From Corynebacterium accolens (GTDB lineage: Bacteria; Actinomycetota; Actinomycetes; Mycobacteriales; Mycobacteriaceae), in the NCBI RefSeq assembly GCF_023520795.1, contig NZ_CP046605.1, positions 124,001 through 188,000 of the forward strand: 64,000 nt of DNA, written 5' to 3'. Both the position numbers and the translations under genes were made by a program. Below, piece by piece: positions 11,349 through 22,853 of the stretch. The notes under the pieces are model-generated. The model ran no database searches. It had not been told where the DNA came from and saw only the letters and a list, made by a program, of their open reading frames with translations. Each line of letters starts with the position of its first letter. Within the stretch, counting starts at the first letter, position 1.

Positions 11349-11433
11349 GGAGACGTGGCAGAGCGGCCGAATGCACCGGTCTTGAAAACCGGCGAGGTTT
11401 ATTCCTCCGCGGGTTCAAATCCCGCCGTCTCCG
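11349..11433 (+). tRNA. tRNA-Ser (anticodon TGA)
   Basis: A class II tRNA with acceptor arms GGAGACG and CGTCTCC, anticodon loop CTTGAAA (TGA, reading UCA), a long variable arm and T arm GCGGG-TTCAAAT-CCCGC. The discriminator is G at 11433 and CCA is not encoded. An IS481 remnant starts 4 bases after it. Confidence 0.97.
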
Positions 11434-11437
11434 CAGG

Positions 11438-11815
11438 TGTCATGAGTCGCGACATGCTTGACAGGTCAGTCGCGACATCGTTGACAAACCGGCATCTCAG
11501 TTGTTTTTGTTCTGGGTGCCGGTTTTCTTGTTATTTGGGGTTTAGGGGTGGGTCCCCTTTTTTCCAGTAGGGCTTTTGGTAGTCGCGGGCTGTGTCGATG
11601 TAGTGCTCGGTGATGATTTCTCCGGTCGCAGCTAGTGATGTGGTTGTCGGCGATGGCCATGAGGATTTTTGTTTCTTGAATGCGCGCCCGATGCCTAGGT
11701 GGAAGAGTTTGCCGTCGTAGCGGACGGTGACTTTGCCTTCTGTCCCAGACGATGTCTTTTCTGGTGCGCCATTCTTGTGTGGGATTGTTGAGGCTGGCTT
11801 TTGCCTAGGCCCACC
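11438..11815 (-). pseudogene. IS481-family remnant: one end plus transposase C-terminus
   Basis: The first 100 bases match the terminal repeat region of the IS481-type element at 36488 (starting TGTCATGAGTCGCGACATG). The following minus-strand reading matches the last ~75 residues of its transposase (GKLFHLGIGR, ITEHYIDT, QKPYWKKGDPPL) with at least one frame break. Homology stops near 11815, so the N-terminal two thirds and the other end are gone. It marks the boundary between the conserved cell-wall region and the lower-GC island that follows. Confidence 0.8.
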
Positions 11816-12202
11816 CCACGAAATTAATACCCCCATACATGACCTTCGCTGCCTCTTACCAGATTACAGAGACAACTACAAGGCGTAACACCGGGACCCC
11901 CACCTTGCCCAAATGGGGCGGAAGCTCTCAGTTTCTTACACTGTCGAGACTGTATGTGCAGCATGAATGTTTAGATTAGGGTCTAATATACCCCCATATA
12001 GGTTGGTTCGAGTGTCGTTCCAGGATTTGAAAATCAAGGCTGTGCATGTGTTACCTGGCGTTTTGGTGAATTATTTAGGTTTTAAGAAAGTTCCTAAATA
12101 TTTAACTATGGACTACCCGTATGCGTAAGGCTACCCTAACCTTATCTGTCAATTATCTGGTGTTTAGCTGTTTTTAAATGCGGTGGCGGGAAAGGGCTAC
12201 GG
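11816..12202. other. AT-rich intergenic region upstream of the secreted-protein island
   Basis: 387 bases without a supportable gene. It contains an inverted repeat ATTTAGG (12073-12079) / CCTAAAT (12093-12099) and the DtxR-like box listed separately. Base composition is clearly AT-richer than the cell-wall genes to the left. It most likely holds the promoter for the gene at 12203. Confidence 0.6.
12126..12144 (+). promoter_or_regulatory. Putative DtxR iron box upstream of the toxin island
   Basis: The 19-mer TAAGGCTACCCTAACCTTA agrees at 14 of 19 positions with the corynebacterial DtxR consensus TTAGGTTAGCCTAACCTAA, including the central CCTAACCT. It lies 59 bases before the LGFP gene start. 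DtxR represses when iron is plentiful, so the island would be expressed under iron limitation; this is inference. Confidence 0.6.
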
Positions 12203-13507
12203 ATGAAATTCGCTAAGAAGTTGACTGCAACTATTGCGGTATGTGCCAGTGTTACTTTTGCTGGTGCTGGTGTTTCAAGCGCCAAGGTTTTTCACGGCCA
12301 TTGGATTGGTGGCCGTATTGAAGAGGCGTATCACCGGCTTGGTGGGTGGCAGACTTTTGGCGACGCTACAACTGATGAGCGTGTAGCTAAAAATAATGGT
12401 CGGTTCCAGGTGTTTGCTAAGGATGCCTCCATTTATTGGCATGCTGGTGTTGATAATGGAATTGCTCACCAAGTGGGTGGGCGTATTCGCAATAAGTGGG
12501 GAGATCTTGGCTGGGAAGGCGCGGCCTTGGGATATCCCATTACGGATGAGTTGAAGACCCCTGATGGTAAGGGGCGGTTTAACCATTTCCAGGGCGGGTC
12601 TATCTACTGGTCGCCAGAGACTGATGCTCATCAAGTGTGGGGAGGCATTCGCGATAAATGGGCTCAGCAAGGCTGGGAGACCGGTGAGCTAGGGTACCCA
12701 ACCACTGATGAGTTGCTTACCCCGGAAAAGACTGGGCGCTACAACCATTTTCAAGGCGGATCTATTTACTGGTCACAAGCTAGCGGAGGCCACAGTATTT
12801 CTGGCCCCATTCGGGATTTCTGGGGAAGTCAGGGATGGGAGCGTAGCTCTTTGAAGTTTCCCACATCGGAAAAATACGCTGCAGGCGGAGGCATAAAGCA
12901 GGATTTCCAGGGCGGATCTATTCAGTATTTTAAGCCTACTGGCAAGGCCCTAGAGGCTTATGACAATCAAAATATTTCAAGCTACCGTCAGATTTATCCA
13001 CTGTTTAACACCACCGACTTCAAGCGGTGGCATGCAGCCGGGGTCTATCGAGAGGTTATCCAAAACATGGATAAATACTTTCCCCTCTCCGGGTGTCCTG
13101 ACGAAATTACCGAGGGCTCTGTATGCACTTTTACCGGTGTGGGCGGAGCTAAAAGCAAAGTAACCGTAGAACGTATCTCTGATGAGGGATTCTCACTGGT
13201 TACTGCTAGCGATCATCCTGAAGGCGGCGGCAGAACACTAAACATCCGATTCGATGAAGTAACTTCCCCCAATGCCGGTGATGACAATGTTGTCTTTGAC
13301 AACGACAGCGTAGAAACTTCCTACACCGGCTCTGACAAAACATGGGTTCGTCTCGTAGTTGAATCCTTTGGTCCGACACAGACCTCAAAGGTTCAAGGTC
13401 CTTTTAGCTCCGATCACATTGGTTCACAGGTATGGAGCAAGTTTGCCGGAACTGTGCGTTCAACAATTGACTCTTCCTCGACGACGTATATCCCGTTGTC
13501 GAAGTAA
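12203..13507 (+). CDS. Secreted LGFP-repeat cell-wall protein
   Basis: A 434-residue protein with a Sec signal peptide (cleavage probably after VSSA, near residue 27). Residues ~30-250 hold four LGFP-type repeats; the clearest units read LGYPITDE...GRFNHFQGGSIYWS and LGYPTTDE...GRYNHFQGGSIYWS. LGFP repeats are thought to anchor proteins to the mycolata cell wall. The C-terminal ~180 residues form a domain I do not recognise, with two cysteines (SGCPDEI, SVCTFTG) that could form a disulfide. It is the first gene after the iron box and precedes the AbfB-like and toxin genes on the same strand, so it may help deliver or anchor the toxin. Confidence 0.8.
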   Translation: MKFAKKLTATIAVCASVTFAGAGVSSAKVFHGHWIGGRIEEAYHRLGGWQTFGDATTDERVAKNNGRFQVFAKDASIYWHAGVDNGIAHQVGGRIRNKWGDLGWEGAALGYPITDELKTPDGKGRFNHFQGGSIYWSPETDAHQVWGGIRDKWAQQGWETGELGYPTTDELLTPEKTGRYNHFQGGSIYWSQASGGHSISGPIRDFWGSQGWERSSLKFPTSEKYAAGGGIKQDFQGGSIQYFKPTGKALEAYDNQNISSYRQIYPLFNTTDFKRWHAAGVYREVIQNMDKYFPLSGCPDEITEGSVCTFTGVGGAKSKVTVERISDEGFSLVTASDHPEGGGRTLNIRFDEVTSPNAGDDNVVFDNDSVETSYTGSDKTWVRLVVESFGPTQTSKVQGPFSSDHIGSQVWSKFAGTVRSTIDSSSTTYIPLSK

Positions 13508-13548
13508 CCACGGTGTTCAACTACGTACCTAAAAGCAAGGAGCCTATT

Positions 13549-21583: not shown

Positions 21584-21718
21584 AAGTCAGACGAAACACA
21601 ACCTGAGGCATCTCAAAACGGCGCTCCAGACTCCAAACACGCGGAAGCATCGCTGTAACAAGCCCCGAACTTCTTACCGAGCCGAAGGCACAAACGGCTA
21701 CACCACTACACGGGACTT

Positions 21719-21793
21719 GACCTCCGTATCGGAAACAGCCGAGCGGCAGACAATCTAACAATGAAGCCAAACTACGCCACGCTTGTGGCCTAG
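21719..21793 (+). pseudogene. Orphan copy of the toxin C-terminal 25 codons
   Basis: Reads DLRIGNSRAADNLTMKPNYA...LVA then a stop, nearly identical to the end of the large toxin. Upstream the same frame closes at a TAA at 21656, so no toxin domain is attached. The 135 bases before it (21584-21718) hold no gene I can support. It is the scar of the cassette duplication rather than a working gene. Confidence 0.75.
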
Positions 21794-21881
21794 ACTGCAA
21801 AGAATAGAGCCCTCGTCTAAGTTGAATCTTCCAAAAGGCAGGGTCAAGAAGATAAACATCTTGCGTCAAGGAGTTGTAGAA

Positions 21882-22283
21882 ATGAAGTTCAATTTTGAGG
21901 TCCCTGAACCGTTGCAGCTATCTGCACCTGTTTCATATTACGAAAATCTTCTGTCTGATTACCGAACCCGAGACATCTCATTTCTCAAAATGGACACTAC
22001 GGGTCAGTTTTTTGGCAAATGTGAGATAGGGGGAATCGACTACGACATTAAGGGCTTTGAAAACGCCGGATTGATTACCTCAATAGAAATCTTAGACGCG
22101 CGGGAGTCAGATAGCTTCCTTGATATCCCACTGTCATTGTCGAGTCGAAAGTTCGTTAAAGCCCTAAAAGATGTGGGGATCGAATTTGAACACGACCGTG
22201 ACGGCATAACCATTCCCCACGACAATGGGACCATTGCTTTGTCATACCAATTCGGCAAAGTTGTAGCTATTTACTGGGGGTAG
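21882..22283 (+). CDS. Candidate immunity protein, copy 2
   Basis: 133 residues, same start context as copy 1. Against copy 1 it reads Ala15 for Val, Ile56 for Val, Lys57 for Asp, Phe59 for Tyr, Asn61 for Ser, Ala62 for Asp and Ile68 for Val; the rest is identical. Two charge changes in one short stretch suggest an altered binding surface, as expected if the copies protect against toxin variants. This is inference. Confidence 0.7.
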   Translation: MKFNFEVPEPLQLSAPVSYYENLLSDYRTRDISFLKMDTTGQFFGKCEIGGIDYDIKGFENAGLITSIEILDARESDSFLDIPLSLSSRKFVKALKDVGIEFEHDRDGITIPHDNGTIALSYQFGKVVAIYWG

Positions 22284-22307
22284 CTAACCAATATCAATCA
22301 CGCGAGT

Positions 22308-22853
22308 GTGCAGTCTGACTTACGCGACAGCCTAACCGAAGGCCTTGACGTACTAAACAACCGACGAAGAAGGAAGTGCATCGAGAAAATGAATATTGAA
22401 GGTACCTGTCCCTTGCCCGTAAAACCTGGAATGACGGTGAACCAGGCTACTAAAGCATGCTATGACTCAGAATTAGGTGCGGATACGTATGAGGAACAGT
22501 TTGAAGGCTGGGTTGATATCGAAACACTAGAACCCGGGGATCCTGGCCGCAAGATTGTGTGCTGCGTGGAAGACGGTAAGTGCGTCACCGTTGAAATGAA
22601 GTACATGGAGACGCCAATCACGGATACCTTCTATGGCGTTGACCTTAATCGTCGCCCCGCCGAGACCCCACAGGCGAGAACCGAACGAGTCGCACAAGAG
22701 CTACAACGCCAAGGAATCCGTACCGAGATAAATGATTTCCTCATCTTATTGCCTGACCACTTAGTCGCTATCGAAACCAACGAGTGCGTTGCCTGGTTTG
22801 ATCCTGAATATTGGAGTCTTGAGGATTTTCTTGAAACGTCGTTCCTTGCCTAG
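22308..22853 (+). CDS. Unrecognised protein behind the immunity gene, copy 2
   Basis: Identical in amino-acid sequence to the product at 18920-19465 (181 residues from GTG). The identity contrasts with the clustered changes in the neighbouring immunity gene, so either the duplication is recent and the immunity gene was changed by gene conversion, or this gene is under stronger constraint. Function unknown. Confidence 0.6.
   Translation: MQSDLRDSLTEGLDVLNNRRRRKCIEKMNIEGTCPLPVKPGMTVNQATKACYDSELGADTYEEQFEGWVDIETLEPGDPGRKIVCCVEDGKCVTVEMKYMETPITDTFYGVDLNRRPAETPQARTERVAQELQRQGIRTEINDFLILLPDHLVAIETNECVAWFDPEYWSLEDFLETSFLA

Follow-up and report, generated by a model that had tools for sequence, protein, structure and literature searches.

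A 64,000-nucleotide stretch of Corynebacterium accolens DNA (GCF_023520795.1, contig NZ_CP046605.1, positions 124,001 to 188,000; hereafter the window) carries a cassette that is, with high probability, an umbrella-type UmbC-UmbB toxin locus without a classical UmbA. Umbrella (Umb) toxin particles are known from Streptomyces coelicolor, where a five-spoked particle is composed of UmbA, UmbB, and UmbC (PMC11062931; PDB 8w20/8w22). An earlier note on this DNA described a same-strand run of secreted LGFP, AbfB, and ALF proteins followed by small candidate immunity genes, and read it as an iron-linked polymorphic toxin island. In the present analysis Pfam confirmed all three families; the umbrella architecture had been overlooked, as was a 1.35 kb duplication carrying second copies of both immunity candidates.

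Candidate UmbC and UmbB subunits

The 1283-residue product of the third cassette gene contains ALF repeats over six stretches (Pfam, E=2e-24), corresponding to six of the eight expected repeats, which by our positional mapping are ALF2, 3, 4, 5, 7, and 8 and include all five of the repeats that bind UmbB in Streptomyces (PMC11062931). A profile of 16 Corynebacterium UmbC sequences, the window's included (alignment A3), matches UmbC1 (8w20_A) with an E value of 1.4e-97 over profile positions 71-980, UmbC1 being the sole PDB sequence matched at E up to 0.001. The order of an ALF set, a coiled coil, a second ALF set, a second coiled coil, a pre-toxin segment, and a variable C-terminal tip is that of Streptomyces UmbC, and by its sequence the protein is UmbC of umbrella toxin particles. 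The generic surface scaffold suggested in the earlier note was set aside, the parts matching umbrella subunits. Near copies were left out of the alignments (L049, L051, and others from A1-A3, L045, L050, and others from A5-A6), as was L115 from alignment A10.

The adjacent upstream gene lies well within the ten genes of UmbC that the authors of the umbrella work used as their search criterion for UmbB. In our structural model of its product, the N-terminal domain superposes on UmbB1 with a root-mean-square deviation of 1.6 over 106 columns (Foldseek), and the domain matches the profile of canonical UmbB with an E value of 1e-9 (hhalign), with UmbB also ranking first, if weakly (E 0.2), in a sequence search of the PDB. 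The remainder carries an AbfB domain (Pfam, E=8e-8) of the AbfB/CBM42 fold, with beta-trefoils filling the VIA-align list for the model and the UmbB part barely covered there. As modelled, the AbfB-like protein combines an UmbB adaptor core with a lectin of the AbfB/CBM42 type in a single chain.

Neither the arm of UmbB nor its usual partner was detected. The Ala-Val-Glu-Asp arm motif, in a loosened form written after viewing the canonical rows, is present in all eight canonical UmbB sequences and in none of 18 from Corynebacterium, with the end in question missing from one of the 18 (L056). Searched with a profile built on four actinobacterial pseudo-trypsin domains from outside the genus, the C. 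accolens genome yields no UmbA, and the best match among 21 Corynebacterium genomes is 3.4e-6, compared with 4e-72 or better in six canonical umb genomes, three of which (G678, G754, G364) supplied no rows to the profile while the other three did. Judged from these searches, a classical UmbA is not found in genomes with this variant. With the AbfB lectin placed directly on UmbB, no UmbA would be needed to build lectin-bearing spokes.

The locus, known here from genes alone, shares with the Streptomyces umbrella particle an UmbC with two ALF sets, two coiled coils, and swapped tips, an UmbB core, a lectin-fold domain on a partner protein, and downstream immunity genes. In contrast to the Streptomyces system, no pseudo-trypsin UmbA and no UmbB arm were found, the lectin is fused straight to UmbB, an LGFP-SRPBCC protein is added, an iron box lies upstream, and UmbC has no twin-arginine motif, the simple RR motif being absent from the window UmbC and from 14 of 16 aligned sequences and present in two, with starts taken from the longest frame. 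We term the locus an umbrella variant because these other described features were not found. UmbA-UmbB fusions (PMC11062931) likewise unite an UmbB core and a lectin in one chain, however they are described as retaining a trypsin-like domain whose cleft holds the UmbB arm, neither of which was found here. Compared with the CBM42/AbfB domains of arabinofuranosidases (1wd3, 3kmv), the present one is fused to UmbB and accompanied by no catalytic domain.

The earlier note proposed contact-type delivery, which gives way to a released particle in that the parts match UmbC and UmbB, and umbrella particles act from the supernatant in Streptomyces (PMC11062931). The LGFP and AbfB-type domains might instead tether the complex to the envelope of the producer, which chemically resembles that of the likely targets, making the UmbC homologue a wall-attached toxin acting by contact; we consider this quite improbable, with no cell-wall sorting signal or transmembrane tail evident by eye in any of the three structural proteins and with the Streptomyces particles acting from the supernatant.

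Distribution of the cassette

ALF proteins occur in 20 of 242 Corynebacterium genomes, in 63 of 397 genomes sampled from the order, and above the cut-off in 9 of 401 sampled from the family, every one of the nine a Corynebacterium; one genome of another genus in the family sample has a sub-threshold ALF match in a 400-residue frame. The UmbB domain is found in 18 of the 242 genomes, 17 of which also have ALF, with the match in the eighteenth (G057) lying at a contig end. At class level the UmbB profile matches 7 of 394 genomes, the window's own included; the match in G255 (L102) was rejected as, by eye, an unrelated protein.

The same three genes are present in 17 of the 20 ALF-bearing Corynebacterium genomes, so that the combination, which the earlier note took for unusual, is not unique. 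Among 22 fetched relatives' loci (L035, taken for the same locus as L049, was left out of the counts), 19 have the trio of LGFP, UmbB-AbfB, and UmbC genes, giving 20 of 23 with the window and bearing out the proposal that the two envelope-binding-type proteins belong with the toxin. In form, UmbC is cut by a contig end in L041, is a 650-residue frame in L056, and is split in L047. Pairwise identities of parts of different proteins correlate with coefficients of 0.56 to 0.96 over 105 pairs (SRPBCC-UmbB 0.94, UmbB-ALF1-4 0.89, LGFP-ALF5-8 0.56).

Several observations weigh against an umbrella locus of this kind. Three loci (L037, L052, L057) have ALF without the two partner genes, and the identity correlations may only reflect shared ancestry. 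Thirteen of the 21 Corynebacterium genomes weakly match the UmbA profile (3.4e-6 to 0.0064), matches that we take for ordinary trypsin-family proteases. Additionally, the binding of an armless UmbB to these ALF repeats is presumed by analogy, as is the joining of the LGFP protein to the particle, and the tip of UmbC has no match in NCBIfam, Pfam, PADLOC, or PHROGs.

Exchangeable tips and linked candidate immunity genes

The tip carries the His-His motif described in the earlier note, with R-H-H-x-I, P-x-I-Q-M, and D-H-x-x-T kept in the window tip and its four aligned relatives (an alignment of five sequences). The motif presumably resembles that of HNH-like nucleases, and the tip is likely a metal-dependent nuclease as judged by the motif. 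A search for solved relatives returned three matches, all with E values of 0.2 or worse. The nuclease-like tip of the earlier note is upheld in its motif, with no family match.

BLAST comparison of the last 260 residues separates three groups of tips and one lone tip (L052), with L041 and L056, whose tips are cut off or missing, left out of the counts. The His-His tip recurs in L042, L044, L045, L049, L055, and the interrupted L057, and homologues of Imm1 and/or Imm2 follow it in 6 of 6 relatives (Imm2 only in L042; Imm1 only in L049, at a contig end), compared with 0 of 14 relatives' loci bearing other tips. A second tip (L037, L047, L050, L051) is followed in 4 of 4 cases by homologues of DW1 and DW2, which occur elsewhere only in L045, with the window's arrangement. 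The third tip is found at nine loci, the two tested matching Pfam Colicin-DNase and WHH. Exchange of tips is evident in L050, whose UmbC shares 98.6% identity with that of the window across its first 289 residues yet ends in the second tip and is followed by different genes. The constant body, exchangeable tip, and matching genes downstream are those of a polymorphic toxin, with immunity predicted from linkage, and agree with the secreted polymorphic toxin with immunity genes proposed earlier.

The immunity candidates have no PHROGs or PADLOC match, and in the same searches the second tip type, as carried by L050, gave one weak REase match (E 0.023); the homologues of DW1 and DW2 in L050 have no Pfam match. 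DW1 and DW2 (19773-21583) are best read as orphan immunity genes to another tip, because their homologues follow the second tip type, which is absent from the window. The lone tip belongs to a divergent UmbC (L052:3331-8001) with no UmbB or LGFP partner in the fetched stretch; it is followed by frames of 285 and 289 residues, near DW1 and DW2 in size and without BLAST similarity to them.

The LGFP-SRPBCC protein

The first cassette gene encodes four stretches of LGFP repeats (Pfam, E=3e-68), a wall-binding-type domain joined in our structural model to an SRPBCC-type fold. The LGFP domain is 35% identical over 210 aligned residues to that of MytA (PS1) of C. glutamicum (PDB 6swz/6sx4) and shares its fold, with the difference that in MytA it is attached to a mycoloyltransferase, and in the present protein, encoded in a toxin operon, to an SRPBCC-type domain. 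Solved relatives of the SRPBCC-type domain were sought by sequence, giving three matches, all with E values of 0.15 or worse. The gene sits where a lectin-bearing UmbA might be expected, yet its product is not UmbA.

Homologues of this protein are also found as single genes in Corynebacterium genomes that lack ALF, which means that it is not specific to umbrella loci, and its LGFP repeats are of the kind present in MytA, a wall protein of the genus itself. UmbC and UmbB-AbfB could form the particle by themselves, with the LGFP-SRPBCC gene a bystander encoding an envelope protein of the producer, for example one that anchors or shields its own wall, a possibility that we take seriously without favouring it. 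The gene is the first of the cassette in 20 of 23 loci, its divergence tracks that of UmbB, and umbrella-linked copies cluster apart from solitary ones in a tree of the SRPBCC domain, with 2 label changes compared with 10.0 when labels are shuffled and none of 500 shuffles as low. The exceptions in this tree, which omits orphan rows spanning under 130 residues, are the long-branched L056 and L094, the latter read as an umb remnant. We regard the LGFP protein as a reasonably likely functional partner of the toxin.

Many of the solitary genes (L078, L080-L085, L089) have an extra C-terminal tail, and six of the eight lie in genomes without umbrella genes. Fragments of umb-type LGFP-SRPBCC genes are found in L092, L093, and L094, and are probably remnants of lost umb loci.

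An iron box upstream of the cassette

The 19-bp DtxR-type site upstream of the cassette (12126-12144) reads TAAGGCTACCCTAACCTTA and matches the published consensus TTAGGTTAG(G/C)CTAACCTAA at 15 of 19 positions by hand count, or 17 of 19 with the A/T positions free, making the earlier count of 14 slightly low for what is a strong box. Scored with a matrix of the first 31 motifs in Table 1 of PMC1382209, those with expression change confirmed by reverse-transcription polymerase chain reaction (background on DtxR is taken from PMC1382209 and PMC13001254), the box reaches 22.0 bits, above 30 of the 31 published sites when each is left out in turn.

The box is absent from the upstream regions of 17 of 17 relatives (best 13.8 bits; those of L044 and L046 possibly displaced, with starts placed at the longest frame), including five close relatives that align at its position and differ there, and a wider consensus scan of 19 relatives gives at best 14 of 19 compared with 17 in the window (L035 is included; L041 and L047 contribute little or no upstream sequence). 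No sigma-70-type promoter was found near the box, with 0.8 expected from shuffles. The absence of the box from relatives would suit a chance or neutral match without regulatory effect, which we hold to be unlikely: no score equal to 22.0 bits arises in 5 Mb of simulated sequence, the box begins 77 nucleotides before the first gene, and the 2.47 Mb genome holds only four sites within two mismatches (none for the reversed pattern), the other three preceding a heme oxygenase gene, an HtaA gene, and the gene of a Trep_Strep-family membrane protein. We regard the iron box as a probably functional, recent gain, and iron control of the umb cassette in this lineage has a good probability. The iron-linked toxin of the earlier note is retained in this narrower form, since a box in 1 of 18 upstream regions makes the iron link lineage-specific rather than general to the system.

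A second, weaker TTAG-rich element (11971-11989, 10.0 bits) is conserved in position upstream of the LGFP gene in close relatives, reaching 13.8 bits in L045, and could be an older iron or other operator. Elsewhere in the window, Pfam identifies a heme-uptake cluster (55593-63342) of HtaA-domain proteins together with a periplasmic-binding-type protein, heme oxygenase, and a further HtaA protein, with a permease and ATPase between them by eye and DtxR-type boxes at 55527, 61681, 61715, and 62409; the cluster served as calibration for the umb box.

Layout of the island

The genome is a single contig, and the locus lies in it as a low-GC (guanine-cytosine) island, with 45-57% GC across 12001-25000 compared with 55-66% in the flanking 4 kb on each side (Table 1). 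On the plus strand, tRNA-Ser(tga) is followed by the LGFP, AbfB-domain, and ALF protein genes, two small and two mid-sized genes, a copy of the small pair, and an IS3-type element that lies just beyond the stretch covered by the earlier note. The second cassette gene has a 97% identical relative in Corynebacterium sp. p3-SID1241. The duplication starts within the tip's last 24 codons and contains second copies of the immunity candidates at 21882-22283 and 22389-22853, whose identity to the first copies across the stretches compared is 95% and 100%. A small frame at 11534-11836 has no match in a Pfam search.

Table 1. Features of the umb island, in window positions. Signal peptides were judged by eye.
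Feature	Position	Strand	Remarks
tRNA-Ser (tga)	11349..11434	+	left edge of low-GC island
DtxR-type iron box	12126..12144	.	starts 77 nt upstream of LGFP gene
LGFP (4 repeats) and SRPBCC-type-fold protein, cassette gene 1	12203..13507	+	
Predicted UmbB adaptor core without UmbA-binding arm, with AbfB/CBM42 beta-trefoil lectin	13549..14442	+	start uncertain, 13513 possible
UmbC by sequence, 1283 residues	14554..18405	+	signal peptide, two ALF sets, two coiled coils, pre-toxin segment, tip
Predicted toxin tip of UmbC	17860..18405	+	R-H-H-x-I, P-x-I-Q-M, D-H-x-x-T common to five aligned tips
Imm1 immunity candidate	18494..18895	+	linked to tip type across relatives
Imm2 immunity candidate	19001..19465	+	linked to tip type across relatives
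Copy of IS3 left-end stretch (23234-23338)	19622..19726	+	79%
DW1, orphan immunity candidate for second tip family	19773..20606	+	homologues directly after different tip in L037, L047, L050, L051
DW2, orphan immunity candidate	20612..21583	+	same basis as DW1
Duplicate of 18331-19685	21719..23073	+	97.4% over 1352 aligned bases
IS3-type element	23189..24497	+	transposase in several frames; Pfam rve, HTH_21

The IS3 element, the copy of its end, and the duplication, together with interrupted umb loci in relatives (L037, L047, L057) and the fragments in L092-L094, are what a decaying remnant that no longer works might leave behind. That the window holds such a remnant is nevertheless very improbable, with all three structural genes open and carrying signal peptides, and with the tip keeping the His-His, P-x-I-Q-M, and D-H-x-x-T residues of its four aligned relatives.

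The tRNA-Ser named in the earlier note is present, with a tRNA-Ser near only 2 of 23 loci within the fetched stretches and no attachment-type repeat of its 3' end found in the window, except inside another tRNA-Ser. Integration at the tRNA-Ser was set aside on both counts. The one relative's locus out of 22 with a tRNA-Ser close upstream also has tga: L053 (4987-5074), just upstream of the umb locus of a distant relative (LGFP protein 43% identical), as in the window, hinting at a preferred insertion site.

Proposed particle and implications

The candidate subunits suggest a particle in which UmbC would form an ALF ring on a coiled-coil stalk ending in a nuclease-like tip, with UmbB cores binding the ALF repeats of the ring, by analogy with Streptomyces, as spokes that end in AbfB lectins. 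The LGFP-SRPBCC protein would be a further component devoted to envelope binding, either joined to the particle or acting next to it, and might also bind lipid. Once secreted, the particle may bind the mycolic-acid-type envelope of related bacteria, the tip then entering the target cell and acting on nucleic acid, with Imm1 and Imm2 protecting the producer, and DW1 and DW2 giving immunity against another tip. The DtxR site would place the promoter under iron repression in this lineage, the particle being made when iron is short. We give even chances to mycolic-acid bacteria being the target, a choice made because both lectin-type domains suggest arabinogalactan-type envelopes. More speculative, and rather doubtful as a whole, is an umbrella particle remade for mycolic-acid prey, in which the trypsin-UmbA joint was dropped, an arabinan-type lectin was placed on UmbB, LGFP-SRPBCC was recruited for wall and mycomembrane-lipid binding, and DtxR control was added in one lineage. 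The LGFP-SRPBCC protein might then take up or insert into mycomembrane lipid, allowing the particle to cross an outer membrane that Streptomyces targets lack.

In the papers searched we found no description of umbrella toxins produced by Corynebacterium, noting that the supplementary tables of PMC11062931 (875 species) may include the genus. The main text of the umbrella papers (PMC11062931, PMC13274773) mentions the genus on three occasions, two of them as a possible target and the other within the title of a reference, with Corynebacterium diphtheriae and Mycobacterium tuberculosis appearing there only as possible targets. As far as checked, what is new is the fusion of an armless UmbB to a lectin, the lack of a pseudo-trypsin among the proteins found, the partner protein of LGFP-SRPBCC type, and the iron box.

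The Corynebacterium studied here is a likely producer of an umbrella toxin. Its different, perhaps simpler, subunit plan offers a natural way to tell essential umbrella parts from dispensable ones, and its envelope-binding-type domains hint at what a particle has to bind and cross when mycolic-acid bacteria are the target. Furthermore, the iron box makes the question of umb gene regulation, an open one in PMC11062931, directly testable in one strain, and, if the proposed control is true, the killing of neighbours would be tied to iron shortage in one lineage.

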